Of a DNA stretch of 38,733 bases, positions 8,295 through 34,348 are shown in pieces. Position 1 is the stretch's first letter, and each line of letters starts with the position of its first letter. A program made the translations under genes and the position numbers. The notes below the pieces were generated by a model, which was not told where the DNA came from, searched no databases, and saw only the letters and a program-made list of their open reading frames with translations. This DNA is from Parvibaculum sp. (lineage in GTDB: Bacteria; Pseudomonadota; Alphaproteobacteria; Parvibaculales; Parvibaculaceae). The stretch is taken from the NCBI GenBank assembly GCA_019635955.1, contig JAHBYL010000024.1:1-38733 (forward strand). Reading direction: 5' to 3'.

Positions 8295-9290
8295 CTATTG
8301 AGCGGCGGCAACGGCGGGAAGGTGAGAGACTTTCTGCAAGGCTTCGCGGATGACTTCAATGCCGGCGCCGGCACGCGGCGCATTTTCAGAGATATGACGG
8401 CGGAAGGCGCGCGCGCCCGGCTGCCCCTGGAAGAGCCCCAGTATATGGCGGGTCATGGCGTGAAGATGCGTTCCATGCGCCAATTCTCTTTGCACGTAAG
8501 GCAGGAAGGCTTCGAGCACCTCTTGGCGCGTGAGCGGGGATGTGCGCTCGCCAAAGAAGCGTGCATCCACTTCGGCGAGGAGATAAGGATTCTGATAGGC
8601 GGCGCGGCCGAGCATGGCGCCATCGACATGGGCCAGGTGCTGCGCCGCCTCGTCGAGCGTCGCGATGCCCCCATTGATGACGATTTCCATGTCCGGCATC
8701 GTCTGTTTCAGGCGATAGACCAGCGGATAGTCGAGCGGGGGAATGTCGCGGTTCTCCTTCGGCGAGAGACCTTCAAGCCAGGCCTTGCGGGCATGGACGA
8801 TCAGCGTTTCGCAGCCGGCTTCGCGCACGGCAAGCGCCATGGCCGGTAGCGCCTCCTCCGGCTCCTGCTCGTCGACGCCGATGCGGCATTTGACGGTGAC
8901 GGGGACGGTGACCGCCTTGCGCATCGCCTCGACGCAGCGCGCGACGAGATTCGACTCGCGCATGAGACAGGCGCCGAAGCGGCCGGACTGCACGCGGTCC
9001 GACGGGCAGCCGACATTCAAGTTCACTTCGTCATAGCCGAAATCGGCGGCGATGCGCGCAGCCTCGGCAAGCTCGGCCGGCTCCGAACCGCCGAGCTGCA
9101 CGGCAACGGGGTGCTCCGACGCATCGAAGCCGAGCAGGCGCCGACGGTCGCCATGCAGCACGGCGCCGGTCGTCACCATCTCGGTATAGAGAAGCGCGCG
9201 GCGCGTGATGAGGCGCAGGAAGAACCGGTCGTGGCGATCGGTCCAATCCATCATAGGGGCGATGGATACTTTATTTTTCAGTGTATTCAA
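8295..9290 (-). CDS. dusA: tRNA-dihydrouridine(20/20a) synthase
   Basis: DusA reduces uridines in the tRNA D-loop using FMN and NADPH. The 331-residue protein has the FMN-binding start SIAPMMDWTDRHDRFF, the catalytic loop LNVGCPSDRVQ (Cys95), VKCRIGVDE, the LIVHARKAWLEGLSPKENR substrate loop typical of the DusA subgroup, and INGGI near the phosphate site. The start is TTG 9290: upstream in frame there are only CTG and other codons before a stop, and the same TTG-AAT is kept in the truncated copy at 29170. It is complete although its 5' flank now belongs to the copper island, so it needs a promoter from the island side. Confidence 0.93.
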   Translation of the reverse strand: MNTLKNKVSIAPMMDWTDRHDRFFLRLITRRALLYTEMVTTGAVLHGDRRRLLGFDASEHPVAVQLGGSEPAELAEAARIAADFGYDEVNLNVGCPSDRVQSGRFGACLMRESNLVARCVEAMRKAVTVPVTVKCRIGVDEQEPEEALPAMALAVREAGCETLIVHARKAWLEGLSPKENRDIPPLDYPLVYRLKQTMPDMEIVINGGIATLDEAAQHLAHVDGAMLGRAAYQNPYLLAEVDARFFGERTSPLTRQEVLEAFLPYVQRELAHGTHLHAMTRHILGLFQGQPGARAFRRHISENAPRAGAGIEVIREALQKVSHLPAVAAAQ

Positions 9291-9335
9291 CAGCTTACCC
9301 TGACCTCGGGGATGTGCAACCAGCCTAGTTTACGC
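9236..9335. repeat. Direct repeat, dusA-proximal copy (candidate attachment site)
   Basis: These 100 bases span the first 18 codons of dusA and 45 bases upstream. They align without a gap to 29116-29215 in the same orientation, 80 of 100 matching by my count. The longest identical block, GTATTCAACAGCTTACC (9283-9299), covers the dusA start codon. A second identical block, GCCTAGTTTACGC (9323-9335), ends the similarity. The blocks are the natural candidates for the recombination core. Confidence 0.85.
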
Positions 9336-9337
9336 CC

Positions 9338-9367
9338 TTGTACTTCCTTATGCGCATATAGGTACAA
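9338..9367. repeat. Inverted repeat with inner palindrome next to the dusA-side junction
   Basis: Arms TTGTAC (9338-9343) and GTACAA (9362-9367) enclose the palindrome TATGCGCATA (9349-9358), almost concentric. It lies 3 bases beyond the end of the dusA repeat, inside the island. It could be a recombinase or excisionase arm site, or part of a promoter/operator now serving dusA (minus-strand TTGTCT and TATATG lie nearby at an 18-base spacing). Confidence 0.4.
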
Positions 9368-9432
9368 GAGAAATTCCCAGACAACCGAAAGACTCCGGAT
9401 GGATCGGATACTGGCGATCGAGTCGCTTGCTT

Positions 9433-12400
9433 TCACCTCGCGCTGCCGCCTTCGGCGTCGTATTCGGACAACCTCATGCCGTGGACGATCGCGTAGATCG
9501 CCGGAATCACCACGAGGGTGAGGAGGGTGGAGGACACCATGCCGCCGATCATCGGCACGGCGATGCGCTGCATCACCTCGGCGCCGGTGCCGGTCGCCCA
9601 GAGGATCGGCAGCAAGCCCGCCATGATGGTGATGACGGTCATCATTTTCGGCCGCACGCGCCCGACGGCGCCCGCCATGATCGCGCCGTTGAGATCGGCG
9701 CGGCTGAAGGCGCGGCCCTCGGCCGCGGCCAAGGCCTTCGCGTCCCGCAAGGCATGGTCGAGGTAGAGAAGCATCACGACGCCGGTTTCGGCAGCCACCC
9801 CCGCCAGCGCGATGAAGCCGACGGCGGCCGCGACGCTCATGTTGAAATCGAGCGCCGCCATCAACCAGAGCCCGCCGACCAGCGCGAAGGGCAATGACAG
9901 CATCACGATGAAGGTTTCGGTCAGACGCTGGAAGTTGAGATAGAGGAGCAGAAAAATCACCAAGAGCGTGACCGGGATGACGACGGAAAGGCGCTGCTGC
10001 GCCCGCGCCAGATATTCGAACTGGCCGCTCCAGGCGACCGTGTAGCCGGGCGGCAGCGCGACTTCGCTTGCGACCATGCGCCGCGCCTCACCGACATAGC
10101 CGCCGAGATCGCGGTCGCGGATATCGACAAAGACATAGACGACCGGCTGGCCGCTTTCGGTGCGCACCATGGTGGGACCGCGCGCCCGCGTGATGTCGGC
10201 GATCTCGCCGAGCGGAATGGCGGCGCCGGCCGGCGTCGTGACGAAAACCTCGCGCGCGATCGCCTCCGGATCGGCGCGGGAGGCCCGCGGGTAGCGCATC
10301 ACCACGTCGTAGCGCTCGCGCCCCTCGACCGTGGTGGTGAGGGCTTTGGCGCCCAGCGCCATCGCAATCGTCTCCTGCACCGTCTCCATTGACAGACCGT
10401 GCCGGGCGATGCGGTCGCGGTCAGGCTTGATGTCGAGGAAATAACCGCCATTGACGCGCTCGGCATAGGCCGACGAGGTGCCGGGAACGGCGCGCAAGGC
10501 GGTTTCGATCTCGCGGGCGATCCGTTCGAGCTCGACGAGATCGGGCCCGAAGATCTTGACGCCGACCGGCGTGCGGATGCCGGTCGAGAGCATGTCGATG
10601 CGGGCCTTGATGGGCATCGTCCAGGCATTGGAGACGCCCGGAAACTGGAGCGCGGTGTCCATGTCGGCAATCAGCTTGTCGAGGTTCATGCCCCGCCGCC
10701 AGTCGCGCTCGGGCTTCAGGTTGATGACGGTCTCGAACATTTCCATCGGCGCGGGATCGGTCGCACTGTCGGCGCGGCCCGCCTTGCCCCAGACCGAGGC
10801 GACCTCTGGAAAGGAGGCGATGATCCGGTTCTGCGTCTGCAGCAGTTCGGCCGCCTTTGTTACCGAAAGCCCCGGCAGCGTCGTCGGCATGTAGAGAAGC
10901 GTCCCCTCGTTGAGGTTCGGCATGAATTCCGAGCCGATGCGGCTGAGCGGCACCACCGTGACGGCGAGCATGATGACGGAAGCGAGGATGGTGACGCCGC
11001 GGGCGCGCAGCACCAGCCCGATCACGGGCCGGTAGAGCCAGATCAGCGCCTTGTTGAGCGGGTTCTGGGCCTCCGGTACGATCCGTCCGCGAATGAAGAT
11101 CGTCATCAGCACCGGCACCAGCGTGATCGAAAGAAGGGCGGCTGCCGCCATCGCGAAGGTCTTGGTGGCGGCCAGCGGCTTGAAGAGGCGGCCTTCCTGC
11201 GCCTCCAGCGTGAAGATCGGCAGGAAGGAGACCGTGATGATCAGCAGGCTGAAAAAGAGTGCCGGCCCCACTTCCTGCGCCGCCTCGATGACGACGGCCG
11301 TGCGCGAGGCGCCGGGCGGCGCATGCTCGAGCCGCTTGTGGGCGTTTTCGATCATCACGATCGCCGCATCGACCATGGCGCCGATCGCAATCGCGATGCC
11401 GCCGAGGCTCATGATGTTGGAGGGAATGCCGAGCACATGGGTGGCGGCAAGCGCCATCAGAATGCCGACCGGCAGCGTGACGATGGCGACAAGCGCGCTA
11501 CGCGCATGCCAGAGAAAGAGAAAGCAGACCAGCGCGACGACGATGCTTTCCTCGACGAGTGTGCGGACCAGCGTGTCGATGGCGCGGCGGATGAGTTCGG
11601 AACGGTCATAGACCTCGACGATTTCGGTATTGCCGGGCAGGCTCGGCGCAACGGCCACCAGCTCGCGCTTGACATTTTCGATGACCTCGAGCGCATTGGC
11701 GCCGTGGCGCTGCAGGGCGATGCCGGAGACCGCCTCGCCCTCGCCGCCCAGTTCGGCGACGCCGCGCCGTTCGTCGGGCGCGAGCTCGACGCGCGCCACG
11801 TCGCGCAGCAGCAGCGGCGTGCCACCCTCGGCGCGGAGCACGATCCTTTCGATATCCTCGATGCCGGCGAGATAGCCGCGGCCGCGGATCATGAATTCGG
11901 TTTCGGCAAGCTCGATGGTGCGGCCGCCGACATCCATGTTGCTGGCGCGCACCGCGCCGGCGATATCGGAAAGCGTCAGCCCCGTGCTTTTCAGCAGCAG
12001 CGGATCGACGATGATCGCATATTGCTGGACGATGCCGCCGACCGTTGCAACCTCAGCAACGCCGTCGGCGCGCGAGACGGCGAAGCGGACCTGCCAGTCC
12101 TGCAACGAGCGGAGTTCGGCAAGATTCAGCTCCGAGGATTTCAGCGCATATTGATAGACCCAGCCGACGCCGGTTGCATCCGGCCCGAGCGAGGGCGTCA
12201 CGCCGTCCGGCAGGCGTTCGGCCGACGCGCTCAGATATTCGAGAACGCGACTTCGCGCCCAGTAGAGGTCGACACCGTCCGCGAAGACGACATAGACGAA
12301 GGAAACGCCGAAGAAGGAAAAGCCGCGCACGACGCGCGCGTGCGGCACGTTGAGCATCGCGGTCGCGAGCGGAAAAGTCACCTGGTCCTCGACGACCTGC

Positions 12401-12573
12401 GGCGCCTGGCCCGGATAGTCGGTGACGATGATGACCTGCGTGTCCGACAGGTCCGGTATCGCATCGAGCGGAATGTGCGCGATCGAATAGACGCCGGCGA
12501 CGATCGCAAAGAGCGTGCCGATCAGCACCAGAACGCTGTTGCGTGCCGACCAGCCGATGATGCCCGCAATCAT
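9433..12573 (-). CDS. cusA: CusA/CzcA-family heavy-metal RND efflux pump, Cu(I)/Ag(I) type
   Basis: A 1046-residue inner-membrane RND transporter that moves metal ions from periplasm or cytoplasm through a tripartite complex using the proton gradient. It shows the RND start (NSVLVLIGTLFAIVAGVYSI), IPLDAIPDLSDTQVIIVTDYPGQAPQVVEDQVTFPL, and the TM4 motif GGIAIAIGAMVDAAIVMIEN, which is the monovalent (CusA/SilA) form rather than the divalent CzcA form. Length is normal. It overlaps cusB by 4 bases (ATGA), so the two are translationally coupled. No outer-membrane CusC/TolC gene or CusF chaperone follows. It is the last island gene before dusA. Confidence 0.93.
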   Translation of the reverse strand: MIAGIIGWSARNSVLVLIGTLFAIVAGVYSIAHIPLDAIPDLSDTQVIIVTDYPGQAPQVVEDQVTFPLATAMLNVPHARVVRGFSFFGVSFVYVVFADGVDLYWARSRVLEYLSASAERLPDGVTPSLGPDATGVGWVYQYALKSSELNLAELRSLQDWQVRFAVSRADGVAEVATVGGIVQQYAIIVDPLLLKSTGLTLSDIAGAVRASNMDVGGRTIELAETEFMIRGRGYLAGIEDIERIVLRAEGGTPLLLRDVARVELAPDERRGVAELGGEGEAVSGIALQRHGANALEVIENVKRELVAVAPSLPGNTEIVEVYDRSELIRRAIDTLVRTLVEESIVVALVCFLFLWHARSALVAIVTLPVGILMALAATHVLGIPSNIMSLGGIAIAIGAMVDAAIVMIENAHKRLEHAPPGASRTAVVIEAAQEVGPALFFSLLIITVSFLPIFTLEAQEGRLFKPLAATKTFAMAAAALLSITLVPVLMTIFIRGRIVPEAQNPLNKALIWLYRPVIGLVLRARGVTILASVIMLAVTVVPLSRIGSEFMPNLNEGTLLYMPTTLPGLSVTKAAELLQTQNRIIASFPEVASVWGKAGRADSATDPAPMEMFETVINLKPERDWRRGMNLDKLIADMDTALQFPGVSNAWTMPIKARIDMLSTGIRTPVGVKIFGPDLVELERIAREIETALRAVPGTSSAYAERVNGGYFLDIKPDRDRIARHGLSMETVQETIAMALGAKALTTTVEGRERYDVVMRYPRASRADPEAIAREVFVTTPAGAAIPLGEIADITRARGPTMVRTESGQPVVYVFVDIRDRDLGGYVGEARRMVASEVALPPGYTVAWSGQFEYLARAQQRLSVVIPVTLLVIFLLLYLNFQRLTETFIVMLSLPFALVGGLWLMAALDFNMSVAAAVGFIALAGVAAETGVVMLLYLDHALRDAKALAAAEGRAFSRADLNGAIMAGAVGRVRPKMMTVITIMAGLLPILWATGTGAEVMQRIAVPMIGGMVSSTLLTLVVIPAIYAIVHGMRLSEYDAEGGSAR

Positions 12574-14126
12574 GGCGCCACCGGTTCGGCGGTGAAGGCC
12601 GAAAGCGCGGTCTGGAGATTACTCTCGGCATCGATCAGGAAGATGCCGGAGGTGACGATCTCCTCGCCGGCGGCCAGACCCTCCCTGATCTCGACTTCAG
12701 CGCCGGCGCGGGCGCCGAGGCGAACGTCGCGCGGCTCGAAAAGCCCGTCGCCACGCGCGACGAAGACGATCTGGCGCGCGCCGTCGTCGATGACCGAGGC
12801 AGCCGGCACGGCAAGCGCCGGTCCGTCACCGAGCGGCGCGGCGATATCGACGCGCACGAAATGGCCGAGCTTGAGGCGCCCGTCTTCGTTCGGCACGACG
12901 AGCCGGACCCGGCCGGAGCGGGTCGCCATGTCGAGATCGGGATAGACGAAATCGACAATCGCCGCGCGCGTTTCGCCGGGCATGGCCGGCATCGACAATT
13001 GCGCGGCCTGGCCGGGCCTGACGAGCGCGAGATCCTGTTCGGCGATCTCGGCCATCACCCAGAGCGCCGACAGATCGGCAATCCGGAAAAGCGTGTCGCC
13101 AGCCGAAAAGCGCATGCCGTCGAGCGAGGGCTTTTCGATGACGGTGCCGCCGAGCGGCGCCTCGAAGGTCACCACCCGCGCCGGCGCGCGCGTGCGCGCC
13201 ATTTCGGCGATGGTGGTGCTCGAAATGCCGAAGAGACGGAGGTTCTGCGCGGCGCGTTCGACATCGCGGCCGCCGCGCGTGAGCGCCGAGAGGTAGTCGG
13301 CCTGCTTGCGCAACAATGCGTCGCTTTCGATCCAGGCCGTCATCAGCGGCGCGCCGACCGCCACCATGCCGCCGGTCGTGCGGACATCGAGACGTTCGAC
13401 AAAGCCGTCGAAGCGCGCCGTCACCAACGCGACGCGGGCTTCGTCCGCCGTCACGATGCCCGCGCCCCGGACGGTGCGGACGAGGGCGCGGCGCTCCACC
13501 GGCACCGTCCGGACGCCGGCGCGCTGCGTCTTTTCCGGGCTGACGCGGACGGTTCCGGCGGGAGCTTCAACATCCTCCTCATAGACGGGGATGTAATCCA
13601 TCCCCATCGAATCCTTTTTCGGCACCGGCGATATGTCGGGCAGGCCCATCGGGTTGCGGTAGTAGCGTATCTTGCGCTCCCCTGCCGCTGGCGCGGCAGG
13701 GGTTGCATCGGCTTTTTTCTCGACGGCTGTGTAGATAACGATGCCCTTGACGGGCGCCGGCACGCCGTCGATTTCCGCCTCGATCGTGAGCGCCCATCGA
13801 CCGGCCATCACGATCTTCGTTTCGAAAACGATGACATCCGGCGCGTCGGCCGGAACCGGCTTGAGCGGCGTATCCATCATCGCCATGCCGTCGGGGCCCA
13901 TGTCGAGCCGCGTCGAGACGATGTCGATATCCCCGGCCGGCACGGGCTTGCCGCTCGGGTCATGCAGCCGGACCTCGATCCGGACGCGCTCGCCGACCGG
14001 TATTTCCTCCGACACGGCCTCGAACTTGTAGGTCTGAGATTGGGCGCCGGCGATACTCCATACGCCGATCGCCGCCACGACCGCCGCAAGCGCAGCGATC
14101 GTGAACGCTTTGGGCAAGCGAACCAT
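12570..14126 (-). CDS. cusB: CusB-like periplasmic adaptor with heavy-metal-binding domain
   Basis: A 518-residue membrane-fusion protein that links the CusA pump to an outer-membrane channel. After an N-terminal anchor (residues about 8-28) comes an extra beta-sandwich domain (about 30-135, YKFEAVSEEIPVGERVRIEV to GIVIYTAVEK). Next is the short heavy-metal-binding domain YYRNPMGLPDISPVPKKDSM followed by GMDYIPVY (about 155-182), then the HlyD-type hairpin, lipoyl and barrel domains. The Met residues in the short domain fit Cu(I)/Ag(I). CAGGAG lies 6 bases before ATG 14126. It overlaps cusA by 4 bases. The N-terminal sandwich domain (YtkA/FixH-like in appearance) is present in only part of the family. 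Confidence 0.9.
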   Translation of the reverse strand: MVRLPKAFTIAALAAVVAAIGVWSIAGAQSQTYKFEAVSEEIPVGERVRIEVRLHDPSGKPVPAGDIDIVSTRLDMGPDGMAMMDTPLKPVPADAPDVIVFETKIVMAGRWALTIEAEIDGVPAPVKGIVIYTAVEKKADATPAAPAAGERKIRYYRNPMGLPDISPVPKKDSMGMDYIPVYEEDVEAPAGTVRVSPEKTQRAGVRTVPVERRALVRTVRGAGIVTADEARVALVTARFDGFVERLDVRTTGGMVAVGAPLMTAWIESDALLRKQADYLSALTRGGRDVERAAQNLRLFGISSTTIAEMARTRAPARVVTFEAPLGGTVIEKPSLDGMRFSAGDTLFRIADLSALWVMAEIAEQDLALVRPGQAAQLSMPAMPGETRAAIVDFVYPDLDMATRSGRVRLVVPNEDGRLKLGHFVRVDIAAPLGDGPALAVPAASVIDDGARQIVFVARGDGLFEPRDVRLGARAGAEVEIREGLAAGEEIVTSGIFLIDAESNLQTALSAFTAEPVAP

Positions 14127-14186
14127 AAGACTCTCCTGAAGTTGATGTGACAGTTGACGCGCAGCCGAAAGGGCCGCGCCGGTCCG

Positions 14187-14588
14187 TCACACCGGCTTGG
14201 GAGGTCGTCGCAAGGGAGAGGGGGAAAGATCGGCCCGGCTACCATCCGGATCGCGAACCGCTTTGATTGCATGCTCGGCCGGGACAAATCCGGACGCAGC
14301 AGCGAGTTGAAGCGGCAGCTTACCGCAAGCGGTCATGCAGAGGGCCGAGCTGTCGCAGGTTGTCGTGTCGGCGCGGTCGCAATCGTCGCAGCAGGGACCC
14401 GCCATATCGCCCGCGCCATGTGCCATATGCGTCGTGGCGCCCTCATCGGCCATCGCGTAAGCCGAGGTCATCATATCGAGATCGGTCGCCGGCGCCGCAA
14501 CCGTTGTCAGAAGAAACGCAACCGCCAGCGCCGCCGCAAGCCAGTGGCGGCAGTTTATACTTCGGCAAACGATAGAGGTCCTCTTCAT
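14187..14588 (-). CDS. Small secreted Cys/Met/His-rich protein of the cus operon
   Basis: A 133-residue protein with a signal peptide (hydrophobic core HWLAAALAVAFLLTTVAAPA). The mature part has a metal-binding look: TTHMAHGAGDMAGPCCDDCD, then TTTCDSSALCMTACGK, in all six cysteines plus His and Met. The tail ends in SPLRRPPKPV. Small proteins of this kind open many copper RND operons; I recognise no named family with certainty (CopL or DUF2946-like at best). It lies 60 bases upstream of cusB and is probably co-transcribed. No good ribosome site precedes the ATG. It is a candidate periplasmic Cu/Ag buffer or chaperone that could stand in for the missing CusF. Confidence 0.65.
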   Translation of the reverse strand: MKRTSIVCRSINCRHWLAAALAVAFLLTTVAAPATDLDMMTSAYAMADEGATTHMAHGAGDMAGPCCDDCDRADTTTCDSSALCMTACGKLPLQLAAASGFVPAEHAIKAVRDPDGSRADLSPSPLRRPPKPV

Positions 14589-14865
14589 GACAACAGGCTA
14601 ACACAGACATCTTTACGGAGGGCTACACAAAAAAGTCATCGAAAATGGCCCCTCCCAACCTCCTTCTGACGACAGGAGAGTTTACGGCCACCTCACGACA
14701 TCGGCGTACCGAAGCCGCCGGTTCAAAGTTCTCTTTCGGTTCGGAAACAGGTTCCAAGACATCGAATAAGGCCAACCTGCGATCTCATTGTCGTTCAGCT
14801 TGATGGTATTTCAAAGCGACCAGTGTACCGGGCGAAAACAGGTCGACTACATCGATGAAGAAGCA
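14589..14865. other. Longest non-coding gap inside the island
   Basis: 277 bases between two minus-strand genes, the only sizeable gap in the array. It probably holds a promoter for the cus genes, but I see no CueR-type palindrome here. It contains a T-run (minus strand, near 14630) and a GGAGG near 14680 with no obvious open frame after it. I see no clear hairpin. Confidence 0.3.
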
Positions 14866-15321
14866 TCAGCGTTTCTTCATCGTATGCCCCAGCCACCAGA
14901 AGGTCAGTCCCGGCAGGACGATCCACTGGGCGACCGGCGAGAGGCCGGCCTCGAGGATCGGGATCACCGGCATCAGGTCGCGATAGGCCCATGAGGCGCG
15001 GATGACGATGTTGAGCCATTCGCTGAAGAGCGTGTAAGCGAGGCCGATGACGACCGTCGCAATCGCAACGCGCCCATAGCTCTGCGCCGGCCAACGGCCA
15101 TTGCCGAAAAGGAAAAGCGCCGCCATCAGCGCGGCAAGCGCGATCAGGATGTCGCCACCGGTGCAATGGATCGCGGCGAAGACGATCTCGCCTCGCGTTC
15201 CGGTCTCCCAGAGTGTGTAGAGCGGCATATGCGCGAATTCCCAGGCGAGATTGCCCAGCGCCATCAGGGCGATGTAGCGCCGCAGGAAAGGGAGCCAGTC
15301 GTTCCGGCCGTCGTTGAACAT
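14866..15321 (-). CDS. Small polytopic membrane protein of unknown function
   Basis: A 151-residue protein with about four hydrophobic segments: FLRRYIALMALGNLAWEF, EIVFAAIHCTGGDILIALAA to ALFLF, YGRVAIATVVIGLAYTLF and QWIVLPGLTFWWLG. It ends in KKR. Acidic and His residues sit at the segment edges (EFAHMPLY, HCTGGD, SEWLN). I know no named family. I chose ATG 15321 because GAGG lies 9 bases upstream; ATG 15327 is in the same frame but too close to that site. It follows the nuclease gene by 11 bases and is likely co-transcribed. Confidence 0.72.
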   Translation of the reverse strand: MFNDGRNDWLPFLRRYIALMALGNLAWEFAHMPLYTLWETGTRGEIVFAAIHCTGGDILIALAALMAALFLFGNGRWPAQSYGRVAIATVVIGLAYTLFSEWLNIVIRASWAYRDLMPVIPILEAGLSPVAQWIVLPGLTFWWLGHTMKKR

Positions 15322-15332
15322 CGGCATCCGCC

Positions 15333-16691: not shown

Positions 16692-16713
16692 GTGACGCTT
16701 TCTCTTGTTGGCG

Positions 16714-16763
16714 ACAGGCCCGAATGCCGGCCGCGTTTCCCTGCCCGGCCTGTGCCGGCATTC
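16714..16763. repeat. Two interleaved inverted repeats upstream of the MBL nuclease gene
   Basis: ACAGGCC at 16714-16720 pairs with GGCCTGT at 16747-16753, and GAATGCCGGC at 16722-16731 pairs with GCCGGCATTC at 16754-16763. The arms alternate (a, b, a', b'), so in RNA they form either of two hairpins, or a pseudoknot. They lie in the 5' region of the nuclease transcript and 3' of the HlyD gene, a fitting place for an attenuator, processing site or autoregulatory target. Confidence 0.5.
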
Positions 16764-16785
16764 CCGCGTTCCCTACACACCGCGT

Positions 16786-17997: not shown

Positions 17998-18000
17998 GAT

Positions 18001-20364: not shown

Positions 20365-20367
20365 GGC

Positions 20368-21668: not shown

Positions 21669-21670
21669 GG
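21642..21670. repeat. 15-bp tandem duplication at the start of the Met-rich gene
   Basis: ATATGTTCTCATGG occurs at 21642-21655 and 21657-21670. On the coding strand it repeats the first codons, giving [10 protein letters not shown] and two candidate start codons. It looks like a recent slippage event. Confidence 0.8.
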
Positions 21671-21717
21671 GTTTCGTACTCCTTGTTCGGTGTTGCGGAC
21701 ATCCGGCGCGGCGCGGT

Positions 21718-22374
21718 TCATGGCGTACCTTCGCCCGACAAGGCGGAGAGGCGGGGAATGAAGGCCGGAACGCGCGCGGCGTAGCGGCGGTAGCTTTCGC
21801 CGAATTTGGCTTCCATCTCGCGTTCCTCGCGCATGGCGAGACGCCAATACATGACGAGAAGGACCGGCAGCATCAGGCCGGTGACGAGGGTCGGCCACTG
21901 CAGGAAGAAGCCGATCATGATCAGCGCGAAGCCGGCATATTGCGGATGGCGCAGACGGGCATAGGGCCCGGCCACCGCAAGCGTTCCTTCGCCCTGCGCT
22001 TCGTGAAGCCGGCGCCACGCGGCCGCGATCAACACGAAGCCGCCGCCGATCAGCACGAAACTCAGGAGATGGAACGGGCTCCAATGCGGGTTCATGGACC
22101 AGCCGAAAAGCGCCGGCCAGAGATGTCCCGCATCGTGGGAGAAGGGATCGAGTGCCGGGAATTGATTGCCGGCCCAGCCGGCCAGCAGATAGAGCGTCAG
22201 CGGAAAGCCGTACATTTCCGCAAACAGCGCCACGATGAAAGCGGAGAAGGCACCGAGCGAGCGCCAGTCGCGCGGCGTTTTCGGCTTGAAAAAGCTGAAG
22301 GCGAAGAGGATGAAGACCGCCGCATTGACGGCAGCCAGAAACCAGAGGCCATAGGCCGGCACGTCACCGTTCAT
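21718..22374 (-). CDS. Isoprenylcysteine-carboxyl-methyltransferase-like membrane methyltransferase
   Basis: A 218-residue membrane protein with about five hydrophobic segments. Its C-terminal part has the conserved SAM-binding pattern of the ICMT/PEMT superfamily: GPYARLRHPQYAGF, then REEREMEAKFGESYRRYAARV and PAFIPRL. Members methylate small membrane-associated thiols, lipids or carboxylates, but the substrate in copper clusters is not known. I start at ATG 22374 (MNGDVPAYG), which has GGAGG 8 bases upstream and overlaps the DUF2933 gene by 11 bases. An ATG at 22392 has no ribosome site. The Gly/His-rich gene just upstream and the Cu ATPase suggest one operon. Confidence 0.82.
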   Translation of the reverse strand: MNGDVPAYGLWFLAAVNAAVFILFAFSFFKPKTPRDWRSLGAFSAFIVALFAEMYGFPLTLYLLAGWAGNQFPALDPFSHDAGHLWPALFGWSMNPHWSPFHLLSFVLIGGGFVLIAAAWRRLHEAQGEGTLAVAGPYARLRHPQYAGFALIMIGFFLQWPTLVTGLMLPVLLVMYWRLAMREEREMEAKFGESYRRYAARVPAFIPRLSALSGEGTP

Positions 22375-22618
22375 CGTCCCGTCCTCCGTCATTGTCGCGG
22401 CGATCATGGGAGCCGTGACCGCCATGGCCGCCATGGCCGCGATGCATGAAGAAATGCATGCCGCCGCACAGCAGCAGGAACAGGAGCGGCCAGGCGCCCA
22501 GAAGATGCGCGCCGTGTTCGAGCACCAGAAAGAGCGCCGCGACCACGAGGAAAACACCGAGAGTCAATCCCGCGGGCGAGCGCCAGAAGACATTCCTGTC
22601 ATCGCGTCGGATGGTCAT
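22364..22618 (-). CDS. DUF2933 family small membrane protein
   Basis: An 84-residue protein with two hydrophobic segments (LTLGVFLVVAALFLVLEH and AWPLLFLLLCGGMHFFMH) and a His/Gly-rich tail (HRGHGGHGGHGSHDRR) that could bind copper. This is the usual form of DUF2933, small proteins found beside copper ATPases and multicopper oxidases; their function is unknown. A GGAGA site precedes the ATG. It lies 28 bases after the ATPase stop and overlaps the methyltransferase gene. Confidence 0.82.
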   Translation of the reverse strand: MTIRRDDRNVFWRSPAGLTLGVFLVVAALFLVLEHGAHLLGAWPLLFLLLCGGMHFFMHRGHGGHGGHGSHDRRDNDGGRDDER

Positions 22619-22646
22619 GAGACGGATCTCCTTTCATGCGGTTCGA

Positions 22647-24962
22647 TCATTTGTCGAGCCCGAGCTTCGCGCGCTTCAGCAACAGCGAATTGCCGATGAC
22701 CGAGAGCGAGCTGACCGTCATGGCGACGACGCCGATCATCGGATGCAGCAGGCCAAGGGCGGCAATCGGGATCGCCGCAAGGTTGTAGAACCAGGCCCAG
22801 AAGAGGTTTTCGACGATCTTGCGGAAGGTCGCCTTCGAGAGGCGGATCGCCTCGACGACCTTGGTCAGTTCGCCGCTCACCAGCGTGACGTCGGCGGCCT
22901 CGATGGCGACATCGGCGCCGGCGCCGATGGCGATGCCGACATTGGCCTGTTTCAGCGCCGGGGCGTCGTTGATGCCGTCGCCGACCATCGCGACCTTGTC
23001 GCCATATTTTTCCTGAAGCGCCCGAATGGCGTCGACCTTGCCCTCGGGCAGGACGGCCGCCATCACCTCCTCGATGCCAACCTGGCGGGCGACGTAACGC
23101 GCAGTGCGCTCATTGTCGCCGGTGATCATCACCACATGGATGCCCATTTGCAGCAGGGTGGAAATGGCGGCGGCCGAGTCCTCCTTGACGGTGTCGGCCA
23201 CCGCGACGATTCCAGCCGCACGATCTTCGATCGCCACCAGCACGGCGCTCTTGCCGGTGGTTTCAAGTTCGGCCAGTTGCGTTTCGAGCGCCGCAATATC
23301 GATCCCCGCTTCGCCGAGATAGCGACGGTTGCCGACGCGCACGCGCCTGCCGCCGACGCGGCCCTCCACGCCCCGCGCGACATGCGCCGCGAAGCCCTCG
23401 ACCTTCGGCACCTCGATGCCCCGATCGCGCGCACCGGCAACCATGGCCTGGCCCAGCGGATGTTCGGAGCCCGCCTCCACAGAGGCCGCGGCGGAAAGCA
23501 CCTCATCTTCGACGAAACCGTCGGCCGCCACGACATCGGTCAGCGCGGGCTGGCCGCGGGTGATGGTACCGGTCTTGTCGAGCACAACCGCCCTGATGTC
23601 CTTCAGGGTCTGGATCGCCTCGCCGGAACGGATCAGCACGCCGCGCTCGGCGCCGAGCCCCGAACCCACCATGATCGCCGTCGGCGTCGCCAGGCCCAGC
23701 GCACAGGGGCAGGCGATGACCAGCACGGCGACCGCCGACAGAATTCCCACCATCAGCGGGGAAAGTTCAGGGTTGACCCAGGGCAGAAAGGCGGCGCCCC
23801 AGAACAGAATTGAGCGCAGCCCATCGGCGAAGAAGAGCCACATGGCGAGGCTGCCGAGGCTGATCAGGATGACCGCCGGGACGAAGCGCGCCGTCAGCCG
23901 GTCGGCGAATTCCTGGATCGGCACTTTCGAGCCCTGGGCCTCTTCGACCAGACGGATGACCTGCGACAGGAAGGTGTCGGCGCCGATCTTCGTCGCCCGG
24001 ACTTTCAGCATACCTTCCTTGTTGATGGTGGCGCCGATGACGGGATCGCCCGGCCCCTTCTCGACGGGCACGGACTCCCCCGTCGCAATCGACTCGTCGA
24101 GATGGCTTGCGCCTTCGACAATCTCGCCGTCGGTCGGGACCTTGGCACCCGGCCGCACCACCATGATGTCGCCCGTCTGCAGCTCTGCAACGGGCACCTC
24201 GATCTCGGCTTCATCGCGCAGTACCGTGGCGGTCTTGGCGCCCATGGTGATCAACCGCTTGATCGCCTGACTGGCGCGGCCCTTGGCGCGCGTCTCCAGA
24301 TAGCGGCCCAGCATGTGGAAAGTCATGATGGTGGCCGCCATCTCGATGAAGGAAGTCATCGGATAGAAGAAACCGACAAGGCCGATCAGATAGGGCGGCA
24401 GGCTGCCCATCGAGATCAGCACATCCATGTTGGCGGTGCGGTTGGTCAGCGAAAGCCAGGCCGAGCGATGCGTGGCGAAGCCGCCATAGAGAAACACCAC
24501 CGGGAAGGCGAGAATGGCGACAATCGCCAGGTAGCCCGGAATCGGCTGCCAGAACATGTGCGGCGCCATGATCAGCATGATTACCGATGTCGGGACGGCG
24601 GCGATCCAGAGCCGTTTCGAAGCCTGGGCAAGGTAGCGGTCCTCGACAGCGCCTTCGTCGGCCGCCGAGGCGGGTTTCGCCTCGTCAAGCGCCGCAACTT
24701 CGTAGCCCGCACGTTCGACGGCGGCGCGAAGGCTTGACGTGTCGGTTCGCGCCGGGTCGAAGCGGACCGTCACGCGATGATTGGCGATGTTGGTGCCGAC
24801 ATCCGCGACGCCATCGAGCCGCTTCAGCGAAGTGGAGACAAGCCCGGCACAATGATCGCTGCCCATGCCGGGCACGACGAGGCGGGCCGTGCGATTTGCC
24901 GCCGTTTGTTCCCCGTCGCCCGAGGAAGCGGCGGTTGTGCTGTCAGGCTTCGACATTTTCAC
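22647..24962 (-). CDS. copA: Cu(I)-translocating P1B-type ATPase
   Basis: A 771-residue copper exporter, one HMA domain followed by the P-type core. Motifs: TGES (294-297), CPC in the sixth membrane segment (418-420), DKTGT with the phosphorylated Asp (462-466), HP (501-502) and GDGIND. The last two membrane segments carry N-x6-YN-x4-P (NLFWAWFYNLAAIP) and MTVSSLSVIGNS, the signature of the monovalent-copper P1B-1 group. The N-terminal HMA domain has GMGSDHC (32-38) in place of GMxCxxC, so it lacks one metal-binding Cys. The start is GTG 24962, overlapping the stop of the gene before it (GTGA); ATG 24956 is an alternative. Confidence 0.94.
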   Translation of the reverse strand: MKMSKPDSTTAASSGDGEQTAANRTARLVVPGMGSDHCAGLVSTSLKRLDGVADVGTNIANHRVTVRFDPARTDTSSLRAAVERAGYEVAALDEAKPASAADEGAVEDRYLAQASKRLWIAAVPTSVIMLIMAPHMFWQPIPGYLAIVAILAFPVVFLYGGFATHRSAWLSLTNRTANMDVLISMGSLPPYLIGLVGFFYPMTSFIEMAATIMTFHMLGRYLETRAKGRASQAIKRLITMGAKTATVLRDEAEIEVPVAELQTGDIMVVRPGAKVPTDGEIVEGASHLDESIATGESVPVEKGPGDPVIGATINKEGMLKVRATKIGADTFLSQVIRLVEEAQGSKVPIQEFADRLTARFVPAVILISLGSLAMWLFFADGLRSILFWGAAFLPWVNPELSPLMVGILSAVAVLVIACPCALGLATPTAIMVGSGLGAERGVLIRSGEAIQTLKDIRAVVLDKTGTITRGQPALTDVVAADGFVEDEVLSAAASVEAGSEHPLGQAMVAGARDRGIEVPKVEGFAAHVARGVEGRVGGRRVRVGNRRYLGEAGIDIAALETQLAELETTGKSAVLVAIEDRAAGIVAVADTVKEDSAAAISTLLQMGIHVVMITGDNERTARYVARQVGIEEVMAAVLPEGKVDAIRALQEKYGDKVAMVGDGINDAPALKQANVGIAIGAGADVAIEAADVTLVSGELTKVVEAIRLSKATFRKIVENLFWAWFYNLAAIPIAALGLLHPMIGVVAMTVSSLSVIGNSLLLKRAKLGLDK

Positions 24963-25240
24963 GCATTCCCCGACTTGCGGCCGAAACCGATGAAGAAATT
25001 ATGGATCGGCGCGAAGACGACCGCGATGTACCAGCCAAAGACGAAGGCCCATACAAGGCCGATGAAGAAGCTCGGCCATGTGATCCAGGTGAACCCGGGC
25101 AACAGGTCGGACAGAAGCCGGTGCATGCCGGGATCCGATACCAGAAGACCGAAGAGCACGCACAGAATGTAGGTAACGACGAGGAATGTGCCGAGGATCA
25201 TCCCCAGCGGCACCATCGCGATGCGTCCTGTCTTGTCCAT
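24959..25240 (-). CDS. Small membrane protein, DUF5676-like
   Basis: A 93-residue protein with two membrane segments (VPLGMILGTFLVVTYILCVL and a second from WPSFFIGLVWAFVFGWYIAV). The sequence between them and the second segment, IGLVWAFVFGWYIAVVFAPIHNFF, match what I know of DUF5676 proteins, which sit beside copper P-type ATPases. Function unknown; a helper subunit or copper-entry protein is possible. I start at ATG 25240 (MDKTGR), 7 bases after GGGAG, rather than at the in-frame TTG 25246. It is coupled to copA by a 4-base overlap. Confidence 0.72.
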   Translation of the reverse strand: MDKTGRIAMVPLGMILGTFLVVTYILCVLFGLLVSDPGMHRLLSDLLPGFTWITWPSFFIGLVWAFVFGWYIAVVFAPIHNFFIGFGRKSGNA

Positions 25241-25313
25241 AACCAATCTCCCTTTTCTTCAACACCATTTGCAGTGCGCCGGTCCCGAATGGATCTCGTT
25301 CAAGCCTGAAATC

Positions 25314-25883
25314 TCAGCTCACGACGATCAGGCCTTTCATGCCGACCTCGGAATGACCGATCAGGTTGCAGGAAAATTCGAAGGTTCCCGCCCTGGTGAA
25401 AGCCCAGACGAGCTCCTTCGTTTCGCCGACATCGAGCGTGACAGTGTTGCCGGCCGCGGCGTGCATCGCCGCATGTTCCGGCGAGACCGGGTCCATTCCC
25501 ATCTCGATCATGTGCCGCATCATCTCGCGCGCCTTTTCCTGATAGGCGGTGTCGCCGAGCGTGAACTCATGCGGCTGTTCGCCATTGTTGACGATCACGA
25601 AACGCACCGTCTCGCCGACATTGAAATTCAACTCGGCTGTGCCGAACCTGATATCGGCAGCTTCGATCTCGACGGTCCTTGTGACTTGCGCGGGCTCACC
25701 CCGGTGACCGAAGGCCGAGGTGTCGGCCATCTGCCGGTCCATCTCGCTCATCATGTCCGACATGTCATGGGTCATGCCCGGCATGGATCCGTGGTCGTGA
25801 CCCTTTTCCGAAGCGACCGCCGGGCCCGTCAACAGACCGAGGGCCGCCGCCATCAAAAACGAATTCCGGATTGTGCGTCTCAT
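25314..25883 (-). CDS. Secreted cupredoxin with Met/His-rich N-terminus
   Basis: A 189-residue periplasmic type-1 copper protein. After the signal peptide (NSFLMAAALGLLTGPAVA) comes a Met/His-rich tract (HDHGSMPGMTHDMSDMMSEM, residues 29-48), then a plastocyanin-fold domain. The four copper ligands are His105 (QPHEF), Cys172, His177 and Met182 (C-x4-H-x4-M). An inserted helical stretch with KAREMMRHMIEMGMDPVSPE lies between the first and second ligands. It probably binds or shuttles copper or electrons with the multicopper oxidase encoded upstream. AAGGAG lies 8 bases before the ATG; a 67-base gap separates it from copB. Confidence 0.88.
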   Translation of the reverse strand: MRRTIRNSFLMAAALGLLTGPAVASEKGHDHGSMPGMTHDMSDMMSEMDRQMADTSAFGHRGEPAQVTRTVEIEAADIRFGTAELNFNVGETVRFVIVNNGEQPHEFTLGDTAYQEKAREMMRHMIEMGMDPVSPEHAAMHAAAGNTVTLDVGETKELVWAFTRAGTFEFSCNLIGHSEVGMKGLIVVS

Positions 25884-25950
25884 TGTTACAGCTCCTTGAG
25901 GGTTGAATGATGCGCCACCGCACCGATCCCGTTTCGCCGTCCTCGCGCCT

Positions 25951-26673
25951 TCAGAACCAGGCTCTCACACCGATGCGCAAGGTCGTGTCCTCGACATCGT
26001 CACCGGCGGCGCGGGTGATCGATGCCGTTTTGCCAAGATCGCGCTCCCAGACGAGATCGACATAGGGCGCGAATTTCCGAACAGTTTCGTAGCGAAGCTG
26101 AAGACCCACCTCGATGCTGCTGAAGCCGGCGCCGACGCCCCGTTCGGGGACATCCTGCGCGAAGAGGTTCAGCTCGACATGCGGTTCGGCGATCAGTTTC
26201 TGCGTGATCGGAAGATCGAAGCTCTGTTCGAAGCGCGCCGACAGATCGCCTTCCGTCGAAAGGAAAGCGGTCGCTTCCGTTTCGAAGAAGTAAGGCGCGA
26301 GGCCGACGACGCCGGCAGCGAGATATGTTTCACCGCGCGGCTCGAAATCCTGCCGGATGCCGACCAGCAGGTCCCAGAAGGGATGGACATTCCGGCCGTA
26401 GAAGAGCTGGGCTTCCGCTTTCTCGACATCGCCGTCGGCGATCTCGCCTTCGGCCCTGATCCAGAGACGCTCGACATCGCCGCCGATCCAGCCATCGAGA
26501 TTGCCGTTCCAGAGGCCGCCATGCCTGTCGGCATAATCGACCTCCAGCTTGATCATGTTGAAAAGATCGGGGCCGTGATCGTCGTGTAGCACTGCCGGCT
26601 CTTCGGCGCGGGCGAAAGCGGGGATGGCGATGGCGAGGGTGAGCGCGAGCGTGGGGACAAGAATGTTCTTCAT
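25951..26673 (-). CDS. copB: Copper resistance outer-membrane protein B
   Basis: A 240-residue beta-barrel of the CopB/PcoB family. After the signal peptide (cut after AFARA) it has the family motifs MIKLEVDYADRHGGLWNGN, DGWIGGDVERLWIRAEGE, AEAQLFYGRNVHPFWDLLVG and a final aromatic residue (VRAWF). It works with the CopA oxidase at the outer membrane. The N-terminal Met/His-rich region seen in Pseudomonas CopB is nearly missing here (only HDDHG). I start at ATG 26673, which shares one base with the copA stop (TGATG) and has GGGAG upstream; a GTG immediately before is possible. Confidence 0.92.
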   Translation of the reverse strand: MKNILVPTLALTLAIAIPAFARAEEPAVLHDDHGPDLFNMIKLEVDYADRHGGLWNGNLDGWIGGDVERLWIRAEGEIADGDVEKAEAQLFYGRNVHPFWDLLVGIRQDFEPRGETYLAAGVVGLAPYFFETEATAFLSTEGDLSARFEQSFDLPITQKLIAEPHVELNLFAQDVPERGVGAGFSSIEVGLQLRYETVRKFAPYVDLVWERDLGKTASITRAAGDDVEDTTLRIGVRAWF

Positions 26674-28460
26674 CACATGCTCCCATGGCCAGCATGCGAC
26701 CCGTGCGCCGTGCCGTCTTTCGCGACGCCGATCGGCACGACCGCGCCATCCGGCGTGATTGCGTTATCGGCTATCTCCGGCGGCTCGACGATGAAGGTCG
26801 TCATCATGCCCGAGACCATGTGGTAGAGCAGATGGCAGTGCAGCGGCCAGCCGCCGACCTCGCGCGCCGTCAACACAACTGAGACCGACTGACCCGGTGG
26901 CACGATGACGGTGTCCTTCAGGGGCCGGCGATCCTTGCTGCCGGTTTCGAGCTCGAAGAACGTGCCGTGCAGATGCATCGGATGCGCCATCATCGTCTCG
27001 TTGACGAAGGTGAGACGAACGCGCTCGCCATAGCGCACGCGGATCGGCGCCGCTTCCCGGAAGCGCCGGTCGTCCAGCGTCCAGACATAGCGTTCCATGT
27101 TGCCGGTCAGGCGCAGTTCGATGGTGCGGGTCGGCTCGCTGTTGTCGACGTTGGGGCGAAGGGCGCGCAAGTCGCTGTAAGCCAGCACTTTCGCGTCCGG
27201 CGGAAAGCCAGAAGCCCAGCCGATCGGCCGGGTTTCAGGCGCGTCCGTTTCCGCGGCGGTCTGCCCCATTGCGCTGTGATCCATGGTGCTGTGGTCCATC
27301 GTGCTGTGATCCATCGTGCTGTGATCCATGGGGCCGGAATCCATCGCCCCCATGTCGTGACCCGCATGCGCCATACCCATATCGGCCATGCCGAGCAGCG
27401 CGCGGGGACGCCGCTCGGGGATTGGTCCCGCCCCGCCTTCCGAGGTCGCGAGCGTCGCGCGCGCGTAACCCGCGCGGTCGATCGACTCCGCGAACAGTGT
27501 GTAAGGCATGTCTTCCTTCGGCTCGACGATGACGTCGTAACGCTCGGCAACGCCGATCCTGAGTTCGTCGACCGGCACCGGGTTCACATCATTGCCGTCC
27601 GCCGCGACGACGGTCATTTTGAGGCCGGGAATCCGTACATCGAAGAGCGTCATCGCTGCGCCGTTGATCAGGCGCAAGCGAATGCGCTCGCCCTTGCGAA
27701 AGAGAAAGGTCTCGTTCCGTTCGGGCGCCTTGCCGTTGACGAGGAAAGAGTAACCCGTGACATCGGCGAGGTCGGTCGGATCCATCCGCATGGCGCCCCA
27801 GTCGAGACGGTCCTGGACGGTGGCGCCGACGCCCTCTCTGCCGACATCGGCGAAGAAGTCGAGCAGCGTGCGCTTGCTGTAGTTGTAGTAGCCCGGATCG
27901 GCCTTGAGATTACGCAGGACCCGATCGGAATCCTCGGGCGTGGCGTCGCCGAGAAGGACGACGTAATCGCGGTCCGCGCTGAAGGGCGTGGGCTTTGCCG
28001 GTTCAATGACAATCGCGCCGAGCACTGTCTGGTCCTGCGTGCCCGAATGGCTGTGATACCAATAGGTGCCGCTCTGACGGATGGGAAAAGTGTAGGTATA
28101 GGATGCCCCAGGCGCGATGCCCATGAAGCCGTTGAAGCCCGGTGCGCCGTCCATGATGCCGGGCAGAAGAATGCCGTGCCAGTGTACCGATGTCGCTTCA
28201 TCGGTCTTGTTGGTGACGGTAATCGTCGCATCCTCACCTTCGCGAAGGCGCAAGGTCGGGCCCGGAACGCCGCCGTTGATCGTCATCTTCTCGACCATCC
28301 GGCCGCCGATCTCGACATGCGCGGTCTCGACCGTGAGGTCATATTCACCGGCGACAGCCGGGCCGGCGCCGGGCAGCGCCCAGAGCAGCGTGGCGCCAAG
28401 GATTGCAATCGTTCGTCCACGCACAACACACGCAGGGCCGGGCAAAATTTTCGGAAACAT
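26673..28460 (-). CDS. copA: Multicopper oxidase CopA (copper resistance)
   Basis: A 595-residue periplasmic oxidase of the PcoA/CopA type, thought to oxidise Cu(I) to Cu(II) and bind copper. Copper-ligand motifs are VHWHG (about 92-96), YHSHSG (135-140), HPMHLHG and the C-terminal HCHLLYHMVSGM. A Met/His-rich insert (358-398) contains four MDHS repeats. The signal sequence (VVRGRTIAILGATLL) lacks the twin-arginine pair that exports most CopA proteins via Tat, which is odd for an enzyme normally loaded with copper in the cytoplasm. I start at ATG 28460, 9 bases after GGAG; ATG 28475 is also open. It shares the gene symbol of the Cu ATPase by convention only. Confidence 0.92.
   Translation of the reverse strand: MFPKILPGPACVVRGRTIAILGATLLWALPGAGPAVAGEYDLTVETAHVEIGGRMVEKMTINGGVPGPTLRLREGEDATITVTNKTDEATSVHWHGILLPGIMDGAPGFNGFMGIAPGASYTYTFPIRQSGTYWYHSHSGTQDQTVLGAIVIEPAKPTPFSADRDYVVLLGDATPEDSDRVLRNLKADPGYYNYSKRTLLDFFADVGREGVGATVQDRLDWGAMRMDPTDLADVTGYSFLVNGKAPERNETFLFRKGERIRLRLINGAAMTLFDVRIPGLKMTVVAADGNDVNPVPVDELRIGVAERYDVIVEPKEDMPYTLFAESIDRAGYARATLATSEGGAGPIPERRPRALLGMADMGMAHAGHDMGAMDSGPMDHSTMDHSTMDHSTMDHSAMGQTAAETDAPETRPIGWASGFPPDAKVLAYSDLRALRPNVDNSEPTRTIELRLTGNMERYVWTLDDRRFREAAPIRVRYGERVRLTFVNETMMAHPMHLHGTFFELETGSKDRRPLKDTVIVPPGQSVSVVLTAREVGGWPLHCHLLYHMVSGMMTTFIVEPPEIADNAITPDGAVVPIGVAKDGTAHGSHAGHGSM
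27270..27329. repeat. Four 15-bp coding repeats (MDHST) in the multicopper oxidase gene
   Basis: Four nearly identical 15-bp units on the minus strand encode MDHST, MDHST, MDHST and MDHSA. This is the copper-binding Met/His box of CopA proteins, whose copy number varies between strains by slippage. Confidence 0.85.
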
Positions 28461-28526
28461 CGCGAAGCACTCCATCCAATGGCAAAGAGGACGCGCGGGG
28501 GCGTCCCGTTCCAGAGAATGGCGGCT

Positions 28527-28949
28527 CTAGATCAGCAGTCGTCCGGTGCGGGCGAAGGCTTCGGCATAGCTGTGAAGGGAATGCGTTCGTCGGTCCGGCG
28601 GCCCGCGCGCGGTATAGGCGCCCGAAGGTGCCGCGAAAGCCAGCGTTGCCACCGACGGCAATACGACGCTTTTCGACACCGGATCGGGCGCCGCCGCCAA
28701 AGCAGACAGCAGCGCCGGCGACGAGAACGCGATGGCACAGGCGGTTTCGTCGCCAAGACACCCTTCGGTGGAGATGCCATCCGGCTGCCCATGCGCCTTG
28801 TGTGCAACGGCTTCATCGTGGCTGTGAGAGGCGGACGCCGCCGGTGCCGGGGCGGCGTTGGCCGGGGACGCGGACCAGCAGTGACCGAGCGCGATGAAGA
28901 CCACGCTCAGAATGTACAAAGCCGATATATGGGCCCGGAACCGTTTCAT
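28527..28949 (-). CDS. Small secreted protein at the head of the copper operon
   Basis: A 140-residue protein with a signal peptide (ALYILSVVFIALGHCWSASP) and a His-containing stretch (HSHDEAVAHKAHGQ) with two later cysteines (EGCLGDETACA). The C-terminal half is Ala/Ser-rich and ends YAEAFARTGRLLI. Small proteins before copAB in other bacteria (CopL, DUF2946) have a similar layout, but I cannot assign a family. It is the first gene after the CueR-type operator. The predicted transcription start falls about at the ATG, and no ribosome site is visible, so translation may be leaderless. It lies 66 bases before the multicopper oxidase gene. Confidence 0.65.
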   Translation of the reverse strand: MKRFRAHISALYILSVVFIALGHCWSASPANAAPAPAASASHSHDEAVAHKAHGQPDGISTEGCLGDETACAIAFSSPALLSALAAAPDPVSKSVVLPSVATLAFAAPSGAYTARGPPDRRTHSLHSYAEAFARTGRLLI

Positions 28950-28962
28950 CTTCTTATAGTGA

Positions 28963-28984
28963 GACCTTCCGCCATGGGAAGGTC
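28963..28984 (-). promoter_or_regulatory. CueR/HmrR-type operator-promoter of the copper operon
   Basis: Perfect inverted repeat GACCTTCC-N6-GGAAGGTC. On the minus strand it overlaps a -35 box TTGACC (28986-28981), and a -10 such as CACTAT (28961-28956) follows at a 19-base spacing. This is the overlong-spacer design of MerR-family copper activators; E. coli copA has ACCTTCC-N7-GGAAGGT at the same place. The N6 centre is one base shorter than in E. coli. Transcription would begin near 28949, the first base of the next gene. Confidence 0.85.
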
Positions 28985-29113
28985 AAGCATCAAATCAAGA
29001 GAGGGACAGTCGGCCGCAGTACCGCAGGCAGGACGCTGGTTTCGCACACAAAGCCATGTCTGTCGTTGCACACGCAGAGCACACGACACGTACTAAGTCA
29101 TTGAGATAAAAAG

Positions 29114-29170
29114 CAGATCGCTCAAATCCATCATGGGCGCGATGGAGATTTTATTTGTCAGCGTATTCAA
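29114..29170 (-). pseudogene. dusA: Remnant of the dusA 5' end
   Basis: From TTG 29170 the frame reads LNTLTNKISIAPMMDLSDL, matching LNTLKNKVSIAPMMDWTDR of intact dusA, and then loses all similarity. Many of the differences are at third codon positions, as between dusA genes of different strains. It marks the far end of the island. Confidence 0.85.
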
Positions 29171-29215
29171 CAGCTTACCGGGCTTTGGCGAGTGTTCAAG
29201 CGGCCTAGTTTACGC
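29116..29215. repeat. Direct repeat, distal copy (candidate attachment site)
   Basis: Same orientation as 9236-9335; 80 of 100 bases match with no gap. The identical 17-bp core is at 29163-29179, and the second identical block (GCCTAGTTTACGC) at 29203-29215. The remaining gap from 29216 to 29314 holds only a perfect 12-bp palindrome (29292-29303) and no clear terminator for the acyl-CoA ligase gene. Confidence 0.85.
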
Positions 29216-34309: not shown

Positions 34310-34348
34310 CGATTTCCTCCCCGAAACCATTACAGCGCAATTTCGGGC

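Follow-up and report, generated by a model that had tools for sequence, protein, structure and literature searches.

The window, by which we mean the whole stretch of 38,733 nucleotides analysed here, lies on contig C119 of a Parvibaculum draft genome (G000). It holds the gene dusA, an acyl-CoA ligase gene and, between them, a copper gene cluster bounded by two copies of the dusA 5′ end, an arrangement that suggests a genomic island. The draft comprises 3.26 Mb in 201 contigs (86.8% complete, 5.4% contaminated), and the comparison set comprised 61 genomes, of which 27 belong to the genus of the study genome. The features at the two boundaries are the following, LE denoting the left end of the element.

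8295 to 9290, minus strand: dusA, an intact frame of 331 amino acids with a TTG start at 9290 (Pfam Dus, E 1.7e-84)
9236 to 9353, minus strand: near junction, consisting of a foreign-type dusA-upstream block, the core and native dusA (junction comparison)
9246 to 9267, no strand: core at the near junction, an inverted repeat ATCCATC-8 nt-GATGGAT with its arms on either side of the presumed exchange point (reported as a terminator-like stem)
29060 to 29142, minus strand: LE with core, variants of which are common to islands of unrelated cargo (LE model 82.9 bits; one of the model's ten source sites)
29068 to 29085, minus strand: direct repeat CGTGTGC-4 nt-CGTGTGC in LE, a candidate integrase arm site (exact here; chance mean 0.6 at two or fewer mismatches; its counterpart in inverted orientation lies at the right end on the integrase side)
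29127 to 29233, minus strand: far junction, consisting of the core and the native upstream block, the old dusA 5′ end (94% to the G021 empty site)
29315 to 31051, minus strand: acyl-CoA ligase, the neighbour of dusA at the G021 empty site (Pfam scan and comparison with G021)

The duplicated dusA 5′ end forms a 118-nt pair (9236 to 9353 and 29116 to 29233) with 76% identity over the 118 nt and a spacing of 19,880 bp. Ungapped, 80 of 100 bases are the same over 9236 to 9335 and 29116 to 29215, as an earlier note on this DNA had described. Every other 100-bp offset in the window, on both strands, gave at best 44 of 100 (mean 25, standard deviation 4), and a BLAST search with the repeat in its own genome (E 1.1e-20) returned two real copies only, the third match being 14 bp long (E 4.8). 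The longest identical run, of 17 bp (GTATTCAACAGCTTACC), spans the TTG start of dusA, where it had been noted before. The start codon was nevertheless rejected as the exchange core, as the junction comparison placed the break at or just before ATGATGGAT, at about codon 13 and ~36 bp further inside dusA than the 17-bp run.

The earlier note had also taken the gene beyond the far repeat for the old upstream neighbour of dusA, and had proposed looking for an empty ligase-dusA junction in relatives. One genome of the same genus, G021, has such an empty site, its ligase match ending 180 bp before its dusA match, which makes the proposed neighbourhood plausible. Compared with G021, the far copy of G000 was 93% identical in the 60 bases preceding the core and 36% in the 120 that follow, whereas the near copy was 80% identical over the 60 bp upstream and 93% over 120 bp inward. 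For the 98-base block, the far copy was 94% identical to G021, and the near copy had its nearest relative in G023 (80%); the donor of the near block was absent from the sample. This contrast identifies the far copy as the native left half and places the native right half in the near copy. Judged by these alignments, the far junction joins the native upstream block to LE, the near junction joins a foreign block with the first ~12 codons to native dusA, and both lie at the same core. The island thus appears to have brought the upstream region of dusA and roughly its first 12 codons. In each core, 8 nt are enclosed by inverted repeats of 6-7 bp, which a terminator scan called stems. Such inverted repeats are expected of a tyrosine-recombinase core site, and the one at the near junction may be the integrase core; since the same bases are dusA coding sequence, the repeats are not independent proof of this.

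At the thresholds used, the dusA query matched in 44 of the 61 genomes and the ligase query in 19. Both genes lay on the same contig in six (G000, G001, G002, G017, G021, and G024), three of which (G000, G002, and G021) have them no more than 25 kb apart; in the fragmented drafts, their adjacency cannot be judged. G002 carries 13.3 kb between ligase and dusA, bounded by the same junction pair as in G000 and containing mobA, mobB, a NasT-like regulator, nitrate transport genes, nitrite and nitrate reductase genes, and cobA (cargo names in G002, G009, G011, G013, and G022 were read from translations). Its far copy was 83% identical to G021 in the 60 bp before the core and 36% in the following 120, and its near copy 75% and 93%, respectively, making the native right half clear and the native left half suggestive. 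G025 is likewise only suggestive as the empty site for the G011 island: its nitrate-cobA stretch is 75% and its block 78% identical, but the gap measures 835 bp in place of about 256 bp. Upstream-block matches in relatives sit at dusA or beside LE, with the exception of one unverified 24-bp match in G058. The gene upstream of dusA varies widely across the genus. A very large polyketide-synthase-like frame, again read from translations, lies there in G001, G012, G017, G024, and G026 (954 aa and cut by the contig end in G012; about 2,470-2,500 aa in the other four), and the dusA locus therefore looks like a general hotspot.

In total, 28 sites were read in one register, and 12 of them do not lead into dusA. 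These continue instead as variants of LE, which is ~75 bp long and consists of ATGATGGATTTGAGCGA, a T-rich stretch, CTCAA, and CGTGTGC-4-CGTGTGC. A sequence model was built from ten of the 12 aligned sites (79% mean column identity); these ten match it by construction, and its search filters lose some weak matches. At E ≤ 0.01, the model called 12 of the 61 genomes, nine with near-full matches that all fall within the 27 genomes of the genus; the matches in G005, G010, and G057 are the dusA start only. Beyond its source sites, the model found G022 C123 and C104, G001, G011 C40, and G023 C422, of which G022 C104 and G023 C422 (degenerate core) are degenerate sites. It further found four solo LE-like ends that carry no upstream block (G011:C14:108561, G008:C147:3116, G013:C1:1908861, and G022:C293:2188); these share a near-identical sequence context, next to a frame resembling a serine recombinase and acyl-CoA-type genes.

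Block-LE junctions were read at 12 places in seven genomes (five in G022, two in G013, and one each in G000, G002, G009, G011, and G023), and all twelve meet at the same core, whatever the cargo; two of the twelve (G022 C104 and G023 C422) are the degenerate ones. On G022 C79, three such sites stand in a row, 10.3 and 8.6 kb apart, on a contig that does not reach dusA. An alternative role for LE as a copper-operon promoter was rejected because cargo of nitrate, signalling, and other types also begins with LE. A search of genome_contigs with the exact LE pattern gave nine matches, two of them in this group (L151 and L154). The other seven (four Nitrospirales and one each from Nitrospirae, Nitrospinaceae, and Bacteroidetes) carry neither LE nor the block beyond the pattern and were taken as chance, not as LE in other phyla. 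The LE pattern had no match in viral_contigs, nor did the far junction in plasmids.

We read the interval from about 9255 to 29135 (19.88 kb) as an integrase-less, site-specific island in the dusA 5′ end, a passenger that would have been moved by an integrase supplied elsewhere, and we give this reading a probability of roughly two in three. The comparisons show one core at both junctions and an LE that recurs, in varied form, at the head of unrelated cargo. Both observations bear on a different main route, in which linear DNA was taken up and recombined homologously through the ~100-bp block and dusA with no recombinase involved. Some homology does exist, each block being 73-94% identical to its closest other block, and the varied upstream neighbours of dusA would also fit. 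But homologous recombination is inefficient over about 100 bp at about 80% identity, and the breaks fall at a single core where LE starts in unrelated cargo, so that we consider this route improbable.

The left end of the island was found unchanged in another species. From the core to the end of contig C123 of G022, 560 of 560 bases are the same as in the window, while on the other side of the core differences appear at -4, -12, -19, and beyond. As the dusA genes of G000 and G022 are only 79.7% identical at the DNA level, these identical left ends point to recent movement. The other copper contigs of G022 were 86-100% identical to the window by 500-base bins and are probably a blend of two copies, because the ends of C123, C87, and C272 all fall no more than two bases from window position 28575. 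The copper clusters of G011 are 93% identical to the window (its dusA, 84%) and those of G001 are 84-93% identical (its dusA, 81%). A left end shared with another draft could also be expected of an assembly chimera, with copper DNA of another strain joined to this genome at a short common sequence, and the completeness and contamination of the G000 draft leave some room for it. We regard a chimera as very improbable, given that the two-contig assembly of G002 has the same layout with other cargo, that the one-contig genome G013 holds block-LE junctions, and that the near block is unlike any G022 block read (closest, 73%).

The same core beside an integrase gene, which had been suggested as a further thing to look for, was seen at dusA in two relatives, G013 and G022. 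PHROGs and Pfam place this dusA-side integrase among the tyrosine integrases, and its position and site suggest membership of the published DusA family. A search with the first 90 residues (E ≤ 1e-8) matched three of the 61 genomes: G013 (100%), G022 (99%), and G007 (37%). In both G013 and G022, the right end on the integrase side carries an inverted LE-like stretch (model 22-78, minus strand). With filters off, the right ends of G000, G002, G009, G011, and G025 gave no such stretch, the G022 right end serving as control (24.8 bits); the five integrase-less right ends tested carry the dusA-upstream block in its place. The right end of the copper island would accordingly be an attB-like dusA upstream block and not a classical attR, as the integrase-side arm was not found there. 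PF00589 had no match between the junctions of G000, G002, G009, and G011 or on G022 C79, and PF00239 had none between those of G002, G009, and G011 or on G022 C79 (G013 was not searched for PF00239).

The G013 island measures 41 kb, with LE at its left (1113400) and the integrase and inverted LE at its right. Adjoining it is a 17-kb block-LE unit that carries genes resembling those for nitric oxide reductase and kdp and has no match to PF00589. On the integrase side, G013 and G022 differ at 36 of the 1025 bases upstream of the core, with six of the mismatches in the last 23, and beyond the core they are 79.6% identical over 900 bases. The mismatches near the core therefore limit the resolution of the exact exchange point to about 25 bp. 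Another family of tyrosine integrases (MRLTDISLKTLQPPVKG...) was observed at L093 (G005:C220) 3363-4526 and at G013:C1 380705-381874 (L096), in each genome next to a metal cluster of Czc or copper type. G023:C126 gave a PF00589 match of similar size.

These results bear on whether the island has simply decayed, in the sense that a dusA island lost its integrase and right end by deletion, gained the second block by homologous recombination with the dusA region of a relative, and is now fixed. Such a history would account for the right-end arm not being found, for the decayed LE copies in G001, G011 C40, and G023, for the study genome having no match to the G013 integrase, and for the block missing at the middle site of G013. 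We think it unlikely, because the layout of block-LE followed by block-dusA occurs with different cargo in G000, G002, G009, and G011, and because the identical left ends of G000 and G022 argue for recent movement. The earlier note had left decay and mobilisation in trans side by side; a passenger mobilised in trans fits better, since LE is common to unrelated cargo and recent sharing between species breaks at the core, and decay is less favoured.

The enclosed genes form a copper cluster on one strand, in line with the metal genes announced before, and 142 bp separate the dusA start (9290) from the end of the cusA stop codon (9433), also as announced. Fifteen island frames were scanned, of which 12 have a Pfam family and three have none; no recombinase family was among them. 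On the window contig, neither PF00589 (tyrosine recombinase) nor PF00239 (resolvase) had a match, in agreement with the claim that the island holds no recombinase. No relaxase or conjugation Pfam family was present among the 15 cargo frames either, and no search for an oriT was made. The assigned frames are listed below; 14127-15332 is a stretch with no assigned gene.

9433 to 12573, minus strand: CusA-type RND heavy-metal exporter (TIGR00914)
12570 to 14126, minus strand: CusB-type periplasmic adaptor (Pfam)
15333 to 16691, minus strand: metallo-beta-lactamase fold, beta-CASP/RMMBL protein (Pfam)
16786 to 17997, minus strand: membrane-fusion protein (family scans)
18001 to 20364, minus strand: FtsX-like permease (Pfam)
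20368 to 21375, minus strand: ABC ATPase (family scans)
21718 to 22557, minus strand: PEMT/ICMT-like membrane methyltransferase (Pfam)
22647 to 24962, minus strand: copper-translocating P-type ATPase (TIGR01511)
24959 to 25246, minus strand: DUF5676 protein with two transmembrane segments (Pfam)
25314 to 25883, minus strand: cupredoxin, CopI-like but under the cut-off of that family (family scans)
25951 to 26676, minus strand: CopB copper-resistance protein (Pfam)
26673 to 28475, minus strand: CopA multicopper oxidase (TIGR01480)
28527 to 28949, minus strand: small frame without a family match, at the left end of the cluster (family scans)

The CopA frame contains tandem 15-bp units at 27251-27346. 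Matches to the copper cargo occurred in 209 plasmid records, none of which covers 80% of it in one place. Outside the island, a linalool dehydratase/isomerase-family protein (32747-34330, minus strand; Ldi, E 1e-116) is encoded near an aldehyde dehydrogenase, a zinc-type alcohol dehydrogenase, and the acyl-CoA ligase, which possibly form a monoterpene-degradation cluster upstream of dusA.

Several observations weigh against a passenger island inserted at dusA. Its movement would have to be deduced from its ends, since excision, a circle, and transfer were none of them observed. The G013 integrase, searched with the 90-aa query, has no match in the study genome, the assembly of which is 86.8% complete. 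Since the LE model detects no arm at the right end, the reaction would join a one-armed site to a bare one, which is not the textbook attP × attB. LE itself deviates in its arm part in G011. Only five of the 12 block-LE sites have dusA on the same contig (G000, G002, G009, G011, and the far site of G013); the five of G022 lie on contigs with no dusA, and that of G023 lies by gltX/gltA-like genes. The copper block-LE copy of G013 stands at 366 kb, 788 kb from dusA, so some units must land elsewhere or be moved later by other means, and at the middle G013 site the upstream block is missing. Copper clusters also occur elsewhere, by another integrase (G013) or by a decayed LE (G001 and G011). In G002, the contrast between native and foreign copies is weak (far, 83%, against near, 75%, to G021 over 60 bp). 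Finally, a scan of both upstream blocks for a sigma-70 consensus found none; that they act as promoters is a candidate role, suggested by their conservation and by work in Vibrio.

If the island did move as a passenger, a tyrosine integrase from another element, such as those of G013 and G022, would act on the core of a circular form, and the circle site (upstream block, core, LE) would recombine with the core of a resident dusA (block, core, dusA). Insertion in this manner would swap the dusA 5′ end and yield the observed pair of junctions. Since it leaves an uninterrupted upstream-block-dusA site, further islands could be added and chains could grow. A solo LE to the left of dusA, with ordinary genes between them, would suffice as the origin of one-armed units. 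The cargo comprises copper export and oxidation here and, elsewhere, as read from translations, nitrate assimilation, signalling, and other functions. More tentatively, and with some doubt, exchange at dusA in Parvibaculum may be integron-like. Operon-sized cassettes, each bearing a single composite site (dusA upstream block, core, and left arm), would then be strung together by the integrase of occasional full islands, so that whole pathways (copper, nitrate, and denitrification) would be swapped among species and dusA would receive the 5′ ends of the donors.

Elements of this kind would be missed by island finders that start from an integrase. The shared one-armed end, the empty site, and the 560/560 junction offer a tractable case in which to ask whether a tyrosine integrase can move passengers with a single-arm site, and how metal and nitrogen pathways travel among environmental bacteria. 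They also suggest that, together with its cargo, an island brings a tRNA-modifying enzyme a replacement N-terminus and upstream region.

Our searches of the open-licence PubMed Central (PMC) literature gave no published description of this Parvibaculum element family. In integron cassette arrays, single-site cassettes stand in a row near an integrase. The elements described here resemble them in this respect, but the units are operon-sized, and the G013 integrase scores 31.2 bits against the integron-integrase model TIGR02249, far under its cut-off of 265. Unlike integrative mobilizable or conjugative elements, the copper island has no integrase of its own.

Genomic islands specific to dusA have been described that carry integrases, insert into the dusA 5′ end, are flanked by imperfect direct repeats, and replace the dusA 5′ end (Farrugia, 2015; PMC4482086). 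The copper island resembles those described there in its one-site insertion and direct repeats, and it likewise seems to give dusA a new 5′ end, with the near block foreign and the far block native. It differs from that set, which as described starts from an integrase gene in dusA, in having no integrase by dusA and an attB-like right end. In Vibrio, IMEVchUSA3 and its relatives in dusA supply a new dusA upstream sequence and N-terminus, as reported from expression tests (PMC8409611), and the copper island appears to do the same. The IMEVchUSA3 group carries int and rdfN and is mobilised by IncC plasmids, in contrast to the integrase-less copper island. The site, the integrases, and the replaced dusA 5′ end are thus already established (PMC4482086; PMC8409611). 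A parallel for islands with no integration module comes from ssrA of Dehalococcoides, where islands stand in tandem with gene-end repeats and 15 of them have no such module, are possibly cis-mobilizable and have been proposed to move with neighbours (McMurdie, 2011; PMC3146451). A cis-mobilizable element would have att sites at both ends but no recombinase or transfer gene, and in this regard the evidence from the copper island is mixed: it has cores at both ends, no PF00589 or PF00239 match on its contig, and cargo in which 12 of 15 frames belong to non-transfer Pfam families and three have no family, but its right arm was not found. The Dehalococcoides islands use ssrA as target and, according to that account, likely serine recombinases (PMC3146451), whereas for the elements described here the target is dusA, the probable enzyme is a tyrosine integrase, and one end is shared.

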